A stretch of 64,000 nt of DNA from Thelephora terrestris (taxonomy: Eukaryota > Basidiomycota > Agaricomycetes > Thelephorales > Thelephoraceae): NCBI GenBank assembly GCA_015956445.1, contig WIUZ02000001.1:3534001-3598000 (forward strand), given 5' to 3'. Within the stretch, counting starts at the first letter, position 1; each line of letters opens with the position of its first letter. This document shows positions 3,850 to 52,856 of the stretch, piece after piece. The translations under genes were made by a program, and so were the position numbers. The notes under the pieces are model-generated. The model was not told the origin of the DNA. It saw only the letters and a list, made by a program, of their open reading frames with translations, and ran no database searches.

Positions 3850-4889
3850 ATGGACGTATCACCAAGAGACATCCCGACGAGCGAGAATATTGCTACCGTG
3901 TCTAAACTTGAAGTTCGGGATGAAAAGGGAAAAGCTGTGACTTTCGGAAGTCTCTTCGAGAACCAGAAGACCATGGTCATCTTCATCCGTGCGTATTTTC
4001 GCTCCCGGTAGGCCTCGCTTGCTCAGCGCAATATCTGCAGGACATTTCTTTTGCGGTGTGAGTACTACGACCGATTTGTGATTGAGGGTGTTACTGATAT
4101 GTACTGGTACCAGAGCTGCCAGGTGCGGTTTTCACCTTCATTGTGAACACAATTTAATCGTGTGGCAGGCCTATATCTCCCAGCTTGCTTCTATCACCCC
4201 TGAAGCCTTCGCCAACATTGGTGTTCGCCTCGTTGTCATAGGTTGCGGAGAGCCGGACGTGATCCCGTTTTACAAAGGTGCAAAGAAACGCTCGTCGATA
4301 GCTGCTTTCAGGGTACAGCTACGCGGGTTGAATCTCGTTGACCTCGTCACCCCCTAGAAACTACTGGCTTCAAAGGTGATATCTATGCCGACTCGTCGAG
4401 GGAAACCTTTCGAGCACTTGACTTCAAGGTGAACCTCGAGATAACGCCGAAGGGAGAGGAAAAGAAAAGCTACTTGCCAAACAGTAGGTTTGTGAATGTA
4501 ATGGCGAGCACGTGGGTAGGTGGAACGGATTTCTAGGAGTCACGGATGTCTTATCGTGAGGATAGCGGGCGGTCACACACCCAAAAAACATCGGAAGGCA
4601 GGGAAACATCTCTCAATTGGGTGGAGACTTCGTTTTTGGACCAGGTCTGTGGAGCGAGCTATGACAGACCTAACACTGATATTTTCCGTAGGACCACAAT
4701 GTTCCTTTGCCCATCGCATGCAACACACCGAAGACCGTGAGTTGATGCGAAATATTGATCTAACGGGCATGCAATTCTGATCCACGATGCGTAGACATCG
4801 AGATCGCGGAGCTCATCCAGCTTCTTGGCTTGCCAGCGTCTGCGGTCCCCGTCCTTTCAACCTCCGCCTCCGGAACAGAAGGAAAGTGA
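3850..4889 (+). CDS. AhpC/TSA-type peroxiredoxin-like protein (AAED1/PRXL2C-like)
   Basis: Thioredoxin-fold protein of the AhpC/TSA antioxidant group. Eight exons: 3850-3988, 4041-4057, 4114-4122, 4169-4277, 4358-4515, 4566-4644, 4692-4736, 4795-4889. After joining, the redox region reads FIRHFFCGSCQAYISQL, giving a CGSC pair, followed by VRLVVIGCGEPDVIPFYKETTGF and GRQGNISQLGGDFVFGPGPQCSFAHRM, a run typical of this family. Exon 3 is only 9 nt and codes for Ser-Cys-Gln, the second cysteine of the pair. The ATG at 3850 is the first in frame. Role (probably peroxide or thiol redox) is inferred from family. About 215 residues, near the usual length. All joins keep frame and all introns are GT/AG. 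Confidence 0.88.
4114..4122 (+). other. 9-nt microexon of the peroxiredoxin-like gene
   Basis: Nine bases (AGCTGCCAG) bounded by CAG upstream and a GT donor downstream. It adds Ser-Cys-Gln in frame between HFFCG and AYISQL, and so supplies the second cysteine of the CGSC motif. Skipping it would keep the frame but delete that cysteine. Confidence 0.7.
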
Positions 4890-14592: not shown

Positions 14593-15303
14593 TGAAAGAA
14601 CTTTTCAGTTATTTTTACATACATCCATACCCCACAACCCTGTCGCCTATTTTTTGGTACGGTCAGCGGCGAATCCGATTATCCCCCCCTGTACCTCGGC
14701 TACCCGTGGGGCATCAACATCTACAACGACAAAATAGCCGGTGGGGTAACCCGGGCGCAGGCGGTGAGGCTGAAGCGCTGAGTTAAGCCTGCGTTTCGCC
14801 TGCAGGATCGCCTCGTTCATGGTCTGTCTTTCGGCTTCTCTCGGTCGGTTCAAAGGTGAACTCGTCGATTCACACTCGTGCCGGCCTCCCTCCATATCAC
14901 CTTTACAGCTGTCACTGCCCAGCGAACAGCGCCTCGCTCAACTGGGAAGCCGATGCTCGGACTCTCCGGCGATTGCCGATTCCACCTTATAAAAACTTCT
15001 GTGCAGGCCTCCCAAATTTTCCCATCCCCCGCTCCGTCTCTCTCTGCTGCTCTTGTAATTAGAGGTCTGTCCTCTTCTTTCCTCCCCTCCCTCTTTCCCG
15101 CTCACCGTTTTTTCCACAGGCTTTTCTTGGCCATTAGACTCTAGAGACTTCGTCCTTGTCCGGCCTTCGTGAAGTGTATTCGCCACGCAATAGACTGTCA
15201 TCCCAACTATAGAAATTCTTTAGGTTAGTCGTTCACTTTTAGGCGGCAATTCCCTCATCTGACCACCCTCATGACCCTCGATCAGACCATTAACGTCTTA
15301 AAA
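14593..15303. promoter_or_regulatory. Upstream region and probable 5' UTR of the EF3 gene
   Basis: About 710 bp with no supported gene. A TATAAAA element sits at 14988-14994, and a pyrimidine-rich stretch follows at about 15060-15130 (ending TTTTTTCCACAG), which is common in strong fungal promoters or as a 5' UTR intron. Since the ATG is about 310 bp after the TATA element, a spliced leader is likely. A minus-strand ORF of 82 codons (14647-14895) is not supported. Confidence 0.4.
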
Positions 15304-47186: not shown

Positions 47187-48868
47187 ATGTACGCCATCAA
47201 AACCCCATCGTTCTTCAGGCCATCGAGCCGCCCTGCTTCCCCTGTACCACTCCCCACATCCACGGCAAAGTTCGAGACCACCTCTAATGCCCAAGACCGC
47301 AACCGTCCACTCTCCAAACTTGCGTTGGCGAGCTTTAGGCGCCCATCTCCCCCTGCGGCAGTTTCACCACAGGCAGTCACACCTCTAGTTCAAGACGGGT
47401 CATACTTAGAAGTTCTGAGTTTGAAGCTGAGTGAAGCCGTCACAAAGGCTCTCGCCCAGCCCACCGGCCCCGCATTACCTCATGAGCTACTCGGGGGGAA
47501 GGGTCCAATTCCTGCAGGCAGAGGTCACGCGCTCGGTGCATTCATTCTCGGGTGAGTCAAACACTTTCCGGATCTCGCACCGGCTGGAGCTGACGGTGAC
47601 ATCACCACAACAGCGAAATCAACGCCTCTCAAGATAACCCACACCTCCAACGGGCCATCGTTCGTTCTTTGCAACGCCCGCTATCTGTGCTGCTCTCCAA
47701 TATCTCTGCTCACTTGCTTCCGTTAACGTCCTCTCCCCAATTCCTTGCCACCACCATGAGCCAGCCCCAGTCTTGCCTTAACGCAACCCAACTGCACGCT
47801 GTAGGGTTAGCGACATTGGCAGGCGAGGTTTTAGAGGCTTTTGACAAGCTTGGCTTGGGGCTGGAAATTGACGGGCGCTCAGATGGGTTGAAGGTGATCC
47901 GGGAGGGTTTGCTTAACCTGGTCACGCGGGTTGCAAGCACCCTTATCGCCTCCATCCAATCCGAGCTGCTTCCCCTTATCGATGGATTAGAGAAGCCTAG
48001 TCCAATTGGAAGGACTGCATCTGGACTTAATTCCAGGAGTGCCAAGACCTCGGCCCCCCACCCGTCGATCATTATTCTGAATTCCGTCGTCCCCCTATAT
48101 GCCAAAGGGCTGGCCAAGATTGCAGCTGTCGATGCAGCCCAGAGCTCGTTAGGCGCGATGGTCATTACTTTGGTATGGCATGGGCTGGTTGCCCTTGCTC
48201 ACCGTCCGTTCACTTCGGGTTCTCCTCCGGCGTCACCCAAACTCACGTCTGCGGTTACCAAGCCCAAGACCAAGCTATCCCCTACGCCGCCCGCCAGCCC
48301 TGCTCCTCGATTCATGACGATAATTCCCCAATCTCGTCCATCAACTCCCCCGAACCACCAAGCCGCGTCGTCCCTGCCCGGCGACGCCAGAATGCTTTTT
48401 GATATCCTTCGCCTCATCGCGAAGCCCTCGAAAGATAAGGCAGCTGGACTGTTGGCATCGGAGGCTGTTGACGAGGCCCTCGCCGCACTGCAATCCTTGA
48501 TCTCCCTCTTGGATCTGATCTTCGCAAACCCACGTCCTGAGGCGGCCCTCCATTTTGAGCAGCTCGAGGCCGACTTGATGGCTGTCACTGATGACCTTCC
48601 TACCCTTATCGGCCTCCCCATCCTCCTGCGCGCCTACGTGCTTCGTGGAGGTTCTCAGGAAGGAGGGGACTCACGTTCTGTGGCTTCGATGCTCGAAGTG
48701 ACGGAAGAGTCCTATCGTGCAAACTGTCTAGCGGGTTTCAACAGAGCCGACGATTGCGAAGAAGTGGTTGGAAAGCACATAATTCGTGTTTTGAGGAACG
48801 ATTTCGCTACGTTGAGAGCCGCAATGGTTGCCAACTGGCTCGAAAGGCAGATCCGTGACGACCGTTGA
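47187..48868 (+). CDS. Conserved-looking protein of unknown function
   Basis: Starts MYAIKTPSFFRPSSRPASP at 47187 (a GTG lies just before it) and has one intron (about 47551-47610) after LGAFILG. The rest is one long open frame to TGA at 48866-48868, about 540 residues. The N-terminus is Pro/Ser-rich. The middle and C-terminal parts are helical and hydrophobic-rich without TM helices (SIIILNSVVPLYAKGLAKIAAVDAAQSSLGAMVITLVWHG, FDILRLIAKPSK, VGKHIIRVLRNDFATLRAAM). A disordered insert lies near 48220-48370. I do not recognise the family. Codon use and length make it a real gene. Confidence 0.75.
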
Positions 48869-49239
48869 TTACATGACGCTTGGTTTAGATTGTTGGTGTT
48901 ACGTCTTCTTGGTTATTTTTATTCAATCGCCCTGTTAAAGCCCCTAGGGTCATTCCTTATTTTAAGCGGGTCATTTCTCCGATGCTATTGGTACACGAAC
49001 CGTTTCTCGTCTCCGTCGGCCATGTGTTAGCTTTTGAAACAAAAATTTATAATAAACTCCAGTTTAATGTCCTATCTCCACTTTGCTCCGAAAGACCAGA
49101 GGGATGATCTCGAACGTAGTAAACGTGGGAAATATTGGACGTGGGATTTTCTTACATAAACTGCACAGTCCGATCTACGCTGGTGGACAGACGGGTCAAC
49201 GACTTCAAGAAGCCAAGCCTCGAAACCTCTAAAACGATA
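48869..49239. promoter_or_regulatory. Spacer and promoter of the RACK1 gene
   Basis: About 370 bp between a plus-strand stop and the RACK1 start. The 5' part is AT-rich (3' UTR and terminator likely). No TATA box stands out. Confidence 0.35.
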
Positions 49240-50543
49240 ATGGAGTCCTTACGCTACCTTGGTTCGCTGCCAGGCCATTCGGGATGGGTTACCGCCATTG
49301 CCACCTCTTCGGAGAACCCAGACATGATCTTGACAGCTTCACGAGGTGCGTAAATCGACTCACAAGGCCGAGGAACAGACTCATCGTCTGACCCATGTCG
49401 CGACAGACAAAACCATCATCGTCTGGCAATTGACCAGAGATGAGGACGCGTACGGATACCCAAAACGCATCCTTCACGGACACAACCACTTCGTTTCTGA
49501 CGTCGTTATCTCCTCTGACGGCCAATTCGCTCTCTCCGCTTCCTGGGACCACACTCTCCGACTCTGGGATCTTACCAACGGCCAGACAACCAGGAAATTT
49601 GTTGGGCACACCTCGGATGTTCTGTCTGTCAGCTTCAGTGCCGACAACAGGCAGATCGTCTCTGGCTCTCGTGACAAGACGATCAAGCTTTGGAATACCC
49701 TCGGTGAATGTAAATTTGACATCAAGGAAGATGGTCACTCGGAGTGGTGAGTTGTGGCGACTCGTGCGTTCGGTGTAAAAAAGGTGTTCACGGCTATGCT
49801 TTAGGGTCTCGTGTGTGCGATTCAGCCCCAACCTGATGAACCCCGTGATCGTTTCTTGTGGTTGGGATAAGGTCGTTAAGGTATGCAGCTGCCACAACCT
49901 ACTTTCACCCGTTCCTTGGGAGCGGTGTGATGTTACATTTAATATTTGCTACTTCAGAGGGATTCACATCCCTATGAGACTAAAATATATCACCAAGATC
50001 TCTGACCCACTCTCCTTCGTTCTCCACGCTTCAGTGAGACCGTTTGCTGATGACTCTATGTCCGCAGGTTTGGGAGCTGTCAAAATTCAAGCTGAGAACA
50101 AACCACCTCGGCCACACCGGTTACATCAACACCGTTTCTGTCTCCCCGGATGGTTCCTTGGCTGCCTCTGGAGGAAAGGACGGTATCACTATGCTCTGGG
50201 ATCTCAACGAGGCTAAGCACCTGTACTCGCTTGAGGCAGGAGATGTCGTCAATGCCCTTGTCTTCTCCCCCAACCGATACTGGTTATGCGCTGCTACCGC
50301 TAGCTGCATCAAAATCTTCGACCTAGAGAGCAAGTGCGTTGGATCACAATCTCGCAACCTGACGATAACGCTGATGCTTGTGACATCCTCAGGTCAATTG
50401 TCGATGAGCTCAAGCCAGAACGTGCCGACACCAGCAAGGTCAAGGAACCGGTATGCGTGTCAATCGCCTGGTCAGCGGATGGTCAGACACTATTCGGTGG
50501 TTTCACCGACGACCTCGTTCGTGTCTGGAGCGTTACCTCGTAA
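49240..50543 (+). CDS. CPC2: RACK1/Gbeta-like ribosome-associated WD40 protein
   Basis: Seven-bladed WD40 propeller on the 40S ribosomal subunit that links translation to signalling. Exons 49240-49345, 49407-49746, 49805-49880, 50068-50333 and 50393-50543. Start [20 protein letters not shown]. Repeats include [87 protein letters not shown] and [27 protein letters not shown]; the last ends VRVWSVTS. About 313 residues, the expected size. The intron after KVVK is 187 nt, much longer than the others, and holds a U24-type snoRNA. Confidence 0.96.
49922..50010 (+). ncRNA. snR24: U24/snR24-type C/D box snoRNA in a RACK1 intron
   Basis: Inside RACK1 intron 3 (49881-50067). C box GTGATGT at 49927-49933, a guide-like element ending in D' box CAGA (49955-49958, stretch AATATTTGCTACTTCAGA), C' box-like ATGAGA (49974-49979) and a second guide-like element before D box CTGA (50002-50005, stretch CACCAAGATCTCTGA). 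Both elements match the conserved parts of U24 snoRNA as I recall them. In baker's yeast snR24 sits in an intron of ASC1, the RACK1 gene, so the host gene fits as well. U24 guides 2'-O-methylation of large-subunit rRNA. The ends are estimated. Confidence 0.88.
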
Positions 50544-50735
50544 TTACTGTGTAGTAGGGCTGGTTGTTTATTGCGTGGCATGCTGTACCCTCAAAATATC
50601 TCGCTGCTGTATCCATGTTATTTCATTGCACTGCAAATGCATGATGCGTAGGTTGGGGATTGAGTATGGGAAGGCATTCATCGCTGTCATGGCCATAACC
50701 ACTGGGAATTCAGTATTCCTTGTGTGCAAAAAAAT

Positions 50736-51645
50736 CTACGATTCCATTGCCTCGCGGAGGTTACGAACACGCTCGTCGTACGTGTACTTGTCCATCCCAC
50801 CGAAATCTATCGTGATGGCGCCATTGGAAAGATTTACTTGTAACTCGCAGATGTGGGACACCCTGACCCTCCAGCTGTCCGCTCTACTCATCATGTTAGC
50901 TTCTTTGGGAATGAAGCACGGTAAAGGACTCACGTTGCAGTGCCATAGAAATCAGAACGTTTGCTGACTAGCCTTGCACTCTGGTCTCGATTCGACGTAG
51001 CATCGTAGATCCACAGCGTCTTCCCATGGTAGATTTCCTGCCACCCATCGTAATCCATGATCGGATTTGGTGGATTGAAGCGTTTCACGTTTGGCGGGAC
51101 AGTAATTTTTCGAAGGTCTACGTCGCTTAGAAGGCGAAGAGCGGCGAGGTTGGAAATGTCGGAGAAGTAGGGGCGAATTTCGGGGCCTGGATCTAGGATG
51201 GAGATTATAGGTCCTGGGTCTCGGTCAGATGAACTTTCGGAATCATCATCCTCGTCATCGTCCATCTTAACGTCGGAAGTAGACGCGGAGGGCTCCTCCT
51301 GGTAATTTTTCGTTTCCGTGTTTTGCTCTTCGTCGGTCGACGGAGAGAACTCGTCTTCCCCCTCTTTCAGTTTGGCCAAGAACGATCGCCACGCTTCCTC
51401 GTTTGAAAAATCGGTTCGAACGAGGATACCCAACCCGGGGGCTTCGTCGTCCGTGATCTCGTCAAAGAGATCATCGTCCGTGAAAAAGTCGGATTCGTCG
51501 CTCGGTTCGGGTTGAGAGAGCTAAGAGGACGAAGATTGATTTCCCCCCCCCCCCCCCCCCAATTATTTACGTTAGGTGTGCGGATGTGGCAGGGGAACTG
51601 ATGTACCTGGTTTGTGTACGTGTTCCGTTTCACGTCAAGGGGCAT
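50736..51645 (-). CDS. DUF6924-like protein, acidic
   Basis: Starts [13 protein letters not shown] at 51645, followed by an intron with an 18-base homopolymer and then [22 protein letters not shown]. The body has [20 protein letters not shown], an acidic low-complexity part ([14 protein letters not shown]), [34 protein letters not shown] and, after a short intron, [23 protein letters not shown]. It ends REAMES at 50736-50738. The [11 protein letters not shown] start recalls the DUF6924 domain known from bacteria and fungi, but I cannot confirm this. About 255 residues. Function unknown. Confidence 0.65.
51543..51560. repeat. 18-base C homopolymer (G on the coding strand) in an intron
   Basis: A run of 18 C on the plus strand lies inside the first intron of the minus-strand DUF6924-like gene, between the donor after TACACAAACCAG and the acceptor CTCTTAG. 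It is the longest single-base run noted in the window. Its length may be a sequencing artefact. Confidence 0.9.
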
Positions 51646-52194
51646 GGCCCAAAATTGCCGTATCGCCCGTAAGCGCCATTTTCGCCTACCTTCGAGCAGA
51701 TGGCGATGTTTGATTTCCGGGTAAGTGGTCTGTCGCGGTGGCCAAAAAACGAAAGTTTTACCCCAAGGCAGACCCAATGTACTCAGGCGTAGCCAAGACT
51801 TACCGCGAGGAATTTCGAAAAGAACGGATCGATGGGGTCCATTTACAAAGTCCAGCCTTCTCGTTTTGATGCAAGAGGGTGCGATCGTGGGAAACGACCT
51901 CAGGAAGCATTTCAATGTCACTGGTGGCTTCACCGTAACGCACGGTTTGAGAGAACATCTGAAGAAAACTGCACCTGCAGAACCGTGGGTTTCATTTCAT
52001 TTGCTTATGGTGGTCAGATACACTGGGGCGTGGTGTCGCCACCGACATTAAACACAACATCGGTGACGTGCTCATTCCCCCTATCGTACTGAGGCCCTGT
52101 AATTAGAAAGCTTGCGCGGAACAAAAAACCCTCCCTCCTGTGTAACGGGCTGATGAATCTGTCCATTCTCTGCTATCAGGGAGGGGGAAAGCGG
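51646..52194. other. Spacer between the DUF6924-like gene and GOT1
   Basis: About 550 bp. A plus-strand ORF of 108 codons (51725-52051) has no recognised motif. It probably holds the DUF6924-like promoter and the GOT1 3' UTR. Confidence 0.35.
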
Positions 52195-52856
52195 TCATAC
52201 TACGGATTGTCTCGACCCCGCCAAACGATCAGCGACCTAGGTCAACGAACAAGGAAGCGTGTAAGCCGACTAGAAGCGAAAATAGGATTTTTAACGTACG
52301 TCTCGGATATAAGGAAGCGTCAGGAACGTCCCAATGAACGGAAGTTGTCGTAAGAACGTCAAGATCACCGGGAAGAAGTCGCTGCGCGGAGAATGCATCG
52401 TGAATTCTGAGTCTGAGATAAACCCCTATGATTTCAAGACCATACCCAAATAAGTTCAAGAACCCGAATATCTCCACGAAGAATCCAATGAACGGCCATT
52501 TAAAGAACACGAGCAGGATGCCTCCAAGAAAGCACGCGGTCCCTCGGATTTTTTGTTTTCGTGCGAAGAAGTAGAAAGTCTTTTGCATGCCGATTATGAG
52601 CGTTAGACCGCACAAGAACAAAATCTGTGGGAATAGGGTTCGGTCAGACCGTGGCGTTCTCTGTCGAGGATATGTCGGACGTACGTTTCCCAGAGCGAGT
52701 AAGGCGCCGTCAAAGAATAGTAACACGCCGAGCATGATGAATATGCCTCCAAACGAGGTCAGGGCAACACCAATTTCTATGACCGGTTTCGAAAAATAAG
52801 ATCAGCAGCCACGGTCCGAGGATTTTGTACCGACTCTGAGTGTCCGTGAGCCACAT
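52195..52856 (-). CDS. GOT1: Golgi transport protein GOT1
   Basis: Small polytopic membrane protein of ER-Golgi and COPII vesicle traffic. Start MWLTDTQ at 52856, an intron, then KIGVALTSFGGIFIMLGVLLFFDGALLALGN. The next exon has FLCGLTLIIGMQKTFYFFARKQKIRGTACFLGGILLVFFKWPFIGFFVEIFGF. Then DFFPVILTFLRQLPFIGTFL and VADRLAGSRQSVV, with TGA at 52195-52197. Four hydrophobic helices and about 140 residues, the usual GOT1 layout. Introns are 50-60 nt. Confidence 0.93.

Follow-up and report, generated by a model that had tools for sequence, protein, structure and literature searches.

In baker's yeast, the ASC1 locus encodes the intronic snoRNA snR24, as stated in the available passages of PMC4848094, and dual U24 RNAs are noted for budding yeast and flowering plants in the accessible part of PMC2780460. 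Elsewhere, both the host and the division of labor differ. Human U24 is hosted by RPL7A, not RACK1, and sponge U24 lies in RPL5 (PMC3412847); the portion of PMC3511168 at hand assigns the second human site to a separate snoRNA, U76. In Neurospora crassa, the same two rRNA sites are covered, but by two separate snoRNAs, namely U24 (CD50), which is listed as intergenic, and CD51 (U24b), an intronic snoRNA carrying the second guide, and the same split of the two guides is given for Schizosaccharomyces pombe (available text of PMC2780460). Since the human, sponge, and N. crassa hosts differ, the host of U24 is evidently not fixed.

Two hints in the literature concern mushrooms. SNORD24.1 of the basidiomycete Pleurotus ostreatus is intronic and measures 83 nt by its printed coordinates, with its host given only as g3964 in the accessible portion of PMC5040776. 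The RACK1 gene of Flammulina, Fvcpc2, possesses four introns of 50, 50, 177, and 48 bp in the available text of PMC7113406. A literature search, covering listings and passages, found no statement on U24 in a basidiomycete RACK1 gene. ASC1, RACK1, snR24, and U24 receive no mention in the main text of PMC8476143, which discusses conserved fungal snoRNA introns; U24, snR24, and RACK1 are likewise absent from PMC3596301; and the passages seen of PMC6776386 contain nothing on the introns of N. crassa cpc-2. The present analysis concerns a 64-kb window of Thelephora terrestris DNA (the whole stretch analysed), in which a sequence-only reading had placed a U24 snoRNA within a RACK1 intron.

The RACK1 host gene

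The host gene (RACK1, also Gib2/CPC-2/Asc1) extends from ATG to stop at 49240..50543 on the + strand and comprises five exons encoding 312 aa, with the spliced model open. The solved chain that the protein matches best is Cryptococcus neoformans Gib2 (4d6v, E 2.1e-172 by phmmer), the yeast Asc1 chain 3frx is matched at E 5.3e-107 (phmmer), and Pfam WD40 at 4.6e-56. The Gib2 match, along with a gene structure resembling that of Flammulina, points to a basidiomycete. Judged by these protein similarities, the identification as RACK1 is firm.

Four introns, all on the + strand, interrupt the gene: intron 1 (49346..49406; 61 nt, phase 1), intron 2 (49747..49804; 58 nt, phase 2), intron 3 (49881..50067; 187 nt, phase 0 after codon 174), and intron 4 (50334..50392; 59 nt, phase 2). 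Intron 3, the snoRNA host, begins with GTATGC and ends with CCGCAG. The spliced model thus reproduces exactly the boundaries given earlier for the third intron, and the earlier estimate that it is about three times the usual size is right for this gene. A candidate branch site, CTGAT, lies at 50047..50051 (+ strand), its A at 50050 being 17 nt upstream of the 3' splice site; this assignment is a motif match. Flammulina Fvcpc2 is built alike, its third intron being the only long one, and the available source describes that intron by its length alone.

A search of the organism's own genome (40.6 Mb, 60 contigs, E up to 1e-10) listed at least 45 RACK1 matches, and such counts for large families are lower bounds. 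Four of these fall at the locus itself (93, 95, and 98% identity, with the first exon at 66%), while the others, at least 41, show 27–43% identity. Among the matches listed, identity of 93–98% occurs only at 49240–50543, and we take the genome, on sequence similarity, to hold one RACK1 gene. Many of the distant matches fall within roughly 600-aa open frames (e.g., on contigs C34, C12, C6, and C56), and by their similarity they look like an expanded WD40 family. In the collection viral_contigs, four stretches fit the pattern for RACK1 protein relatives, and none of them codes for one.

Anatomy of the predicted snoRNA

The predicted snoRNA, together with its external stem, occupies 49918..50014 of the + strand. 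As the earlier reading had proposed, boxes C, D', C', and D appear in the order expected of a box C/D snoRNA, all within 49927–50005 of intron 3, and predicted terminal pairing accompanies them. Box C (GTGATGT, 49927..49933, + strand) departs from RUGAUGA in its last base, a departure that is also present in the Rfam U24 consensus as given in the cmscan output. The first guide (49941..49953, + strand) is followed, one base past its end, by box D' (CAGA, 49955..49958, + strand). Between D' and C' lies a stretch that folds into the hairpin GGGAT-TCAC-ATCCC (49959..49972, + strand), and box C' itself (TATGAGA, 49973..49979, + strand) is, like D', degenerate. The second guide (49988..50001, + strand) abuts a canonical box D (CTGA, 50002..50005, + strand).

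In the minimum-energy fold of 49918–50014, bases 49918–49922 and 49924–49925 pair with 50007–50014 to form the external stem, which contains a C-A mismatch. This fold pairs part of box C and part of the D' guide as well, bases that would be unpaired in a protein-bound box C/D RNA. When the whole 187-nt intron is folded, the GGGAT/ATCCC hairpin is kept and the external stem is absent. Given this absence and the pairing of part of the box C and guide sequence, the modeled stem is considered plausible at most.

Covariance searches

With permissive settings, cmscan of positions 48000–52500 against 4227 Rfam families placed SNORD24 (U24, RF00069) first of three matches in this 4.5 kb (E 0.002). The match lies at 49924–50007 of the + strand, scores 35.5 bits, and covers model positions 1–76 of 76, so that the boxes and complementarities of the Rfam family are found here from end to end; its E value is 0.0014 in the 3.1-kb locus L001 and 0.029 over the whole window. 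The covariance hit proposed as a check on the U24 assignment is therefore present, though below threshold, since the Rfam gathering score for SNORD24 is 41 bits. For the same reason, a default Rfam scan of the window at gathering scores returned 0 matches. The gathering score is an annotation cut-off rather than a biological feature, and the name U24 rests here on other criteria.

The two remaining matches in 48000–52500, to mir-231 (21.6 bits against a cut-off of 50) and sR36 (13.8 bits against a cut-off of 55), were dismissed as chance. Elsewhere in the window, at 14840–14933 of the - strand, there is a match to Rfam WT1-AS_5, a piece of the lncRNA antisense to WT1 (29.9 bits, E 0.0053); it is far under the cut-off of 80 and probably reflects chance as well.

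Across the 40.6-Mb genome, where scoring covered 59 of 6639 first-look candidates, intron 3 was the best of three SNORD24 matches (E 0.0044), and the other two reached 21.4 bits at E 9.75. Among the scored candidates, it is the only convincing SNORD24 match in the genome. As a control, 14 named prokaryote genomes were searched, and 11 of them gave SNORD24 matches at E up to 10, none above the cut-off; only a low E value combined with the anatomy can therefore count as evidence. A U24 sequence pattern found 0 matches in viral_contigs and three stretches in genome_contigs, all in bacterial records; by our own arithmetic, chance alone should give three to four exact matches in a collection as large as the latter.

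Guides and predicted rRNA targets

Complementarity to the target was measured on a eukaryotic LSU piece other than the fungus's own rRNA. The organism's nuclear rDNA was not found in the 40.6-Mb, 60-contig genome with an LSU 61-mer, with two LSU 25-mers (up to two mismatches), or with the 5.8S family. The LSU piece was located through an LSU word, which matched one record in viral_contigs (L004), and positions 4115–4503 of its - strand are eukaryotic LSU rRNA at 324.6 bits (Rfam). This record is filed as viral and ends in eukaryotic LSU rRNA, and for that reason the contig could be eukaryotic or chimeric.

The two guides are complementary to adjacent stretches of the L004 LSU rRNA. The guide beside D' forms 13 Watson-Crick pairs and the guide beside D forms 14 bp (13 Watson-Crick and one G-U), each in register with its box, where U24 is expected to have about 12 nt apiece. 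The suggestion that two guide-like elements match U24 is thus borne out, and rRNA complementarity upstream of both D and D' is present on this LSU piece. Five further runs link intron 3 to LSU, all of length 8 and each with one to four G-U pairs. Introns 1, 2, and 4 contain no Watson-Crick run of at least 8 to the LSU stretch.

It is conceivable that short boxes and rRNA-like words have simply clustered by chance in a long intron. The boxes are indeed short and common, and seven Watson-Crick runs of at least 10 to the LSU stretch occur on the + strand of the 64-kb window (0 on the - strand). Two of the seven, separated by 50 nt, are the guides; the remaining five are isolated from one another (7312, 18917, 28401, 29649, and 37870), three being 11–12 nt long and two 10 nt. 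However, when intron 3 was shuffled 20,000 times with dinucleotides preserved and compared with the 49-nt LSU stretch, a Watson-Crick run of at least 11 arose in 59 shuffles, a run of at least 13 in 3, and two runs of at least 9 in 15, against observed runs of 13 and 11. Together with the register of both guides with D' and D and the genome-wide SNORD24 E value of 0.0044, these counts make a chance origin exceedingly improbable.

The guides also bear on whether the intron might carry a decayed U24 pseudogene, with a working copy elsewhere. The score under the Rfam cut-off and a box C ending in T rather than A would fit such decay, but the box C departure sits in the Rfam consensus itself, both guides are intact, and each has one exact copy in the genome, at this locus: the D' guide over its full length, and the D guide as its final 11 bases together with box D. 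For the latter pattern, five one-mismatch places exist in the genome versus two for a reversed control pattern. With no second convincing SNORD24 match among the scored candidates of the genome (the other two stand at 21.4 bits and E 9.75), a pseudogene is considered very improbable.

The preferred reading is that intron 3 very likely harbors a functional U24 ortholog, a dual guide like yeast snR24. This assignment follows from the boxes, the two guides, the end-to-end SNORD24 match, and the single exact copies of the guides, and the earlier claim of a U24 snoRNA in a RACK1 intron finds support in the SNORD24 match, the guides, and the identity of the host.

In box C/D RNAs, the base to be methylated pairs with the fifth base before box D or D'. 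By this rule, the D guide is predicted to target the C that corresponds to C1437 of yeast 25S rRNA, and the D' guide the A that corresponds to position 1449, perhaps along with the next G. Reading the second target as A is consistent with the L004 LSU letters. The yeast sites are given as 'C1437, C1449, and C1450' in the available passages of PMC4848094, and Cm1435 and Am1447 are listed in the accessible part of PMC3511168.

Proposed biogenesis and function

We infer that the predicted U24 is expressed, processed, and active in methylation, along a route that can be outlined as follows. The RACK1 transcript would be spliced and the resulting lariat debranched, after which exonuclease trimming of the debranched intron to the C/D core would release U24. 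The released RNA would bind the box C/D proteins and would guide 2'-O-methylation at two neighbouring LSU sites: the counterpart of yeast C1437, a C reached through the fifth base ahead of box D, and the counterpart of yeast 1449, an A reached in the same manner ahead of D', possibly with the G next to it. According to the available text of PMC9606315, deletion of the debranching enzyme gene in Fusarium graminearum lowers the levels of five putative intronic snoRNAs, one of which is U24, and this decrease fits the proposed debranching route.

Comparison with yeast snR24

That the host gene is common to this snoRNA and to snR24 of baker's yeast, as had been claimed, agrees with the placement of snR24 in ASC1 in the available passages of PMC4848094, and the T. 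terrestris host does encode RACK1. Beyond the host gene family and the dual guides, the two RNAs also have guide and box letters in common over the stretches covered by the yeast SNR24 primers printed there: ungapped, the primers agree with intron 3 at 16/23 and 19/23 letters, including uninterrupted identical stretches of 13 and 18 letters. The stretch after D' in T. terrestris differs from the yeast primer. The RACK1 gene of T. terrestris has four introns, unlike its S. cerevisiae counterpart ASC1.

Intron 3 follows residue 174 of the host protein, which aligns with residue 179 of the Asc1 sequence used. The yeast ASC1 intron is taken to follow codon 179 in phase 0. If this Asc1 sequence and these coordinates hold, the intron site and phase would coincide in the two fungi; the literature search found no paper confirming the ASC1 intron position.

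A true U24 might nonetheless have reached RACK1 independently in the two lineages, this gene having been colonised twice by a mobile snoRNA. Such convergence would draw on the movement of snoRNAs among introns of highly expressed ribosomal genes, and it would accord with the variety of U24 hosts, from RPL7A in human and RPL5 in sponges (PMC3412847) to an intergenic location in N. crassa (as listed in the available text of PMC2780460), and with the relocation of snoRNA genes within genomes discussed in passages of PMC8476143. On the other hand, the gene, both guides, and the orientation are all common to yeast, and the long third intron of Flammulina, known from its source by length alone, suggests age within the Agaricomycetes. 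By the yeast coordinates given above, moreover, the codon boundary and phase would be the same, and two landings at one site are improbable. Convergence is therefore regarded as unlikely.

Age of the arrangement

The alternative to convergence is descent, in which the host, and probably also the intron site, would have come down from an ancestor shared with S. cerevisiae. We consider it probable that U24, as a dual-guide RNA, has kept this phase-0 intron site in RACK1 since before the split of Ascomycota and Basidiomycota. Inheritance from before the split would be the simplest reading of one basidiomycete sequence and two literature hints. The 177-bp intron of Flammulina and the intronic SNORD24 of Pleurotus fit an age of this arrangement within the mushrooms. 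The sequence-only reading had held that the arrangement predates the split of the two phyla. This is considered likely, with the host common to yeast and the Flammulina and Pleurotus hints in its favor, and the U24 of N. crassa, intergenic in the available listing, speaking against it. An ancestral RACK1 host would still be compatible with such cases if U24 had been lost from RACK1, or split, in those lineages.

Taken as a whole, the T. terrestris locus presents a familiar RNA in a familiar kind of setting, a new basidiomycete example of a snoRNA-host pairing already known from baker's yeast, and it is useful mainly as a hint of an old arrangement. In practical terms, the copy in this RACK1 intron goes undetected when Rfam's curated U24 cut-off is applied, and routine annotation could omit it. 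The age question is checkable with published fungal genomes. The comparison suggests that a dual-guide U24 within RACK1 is ancestral in Dikarya. If so, the division into U24 and U24b in Neurospora and fission yeast would be derived, and a single transcript would have supplied both a ribosomal protein and an rRNA guide over a very long span of fungal evolution.
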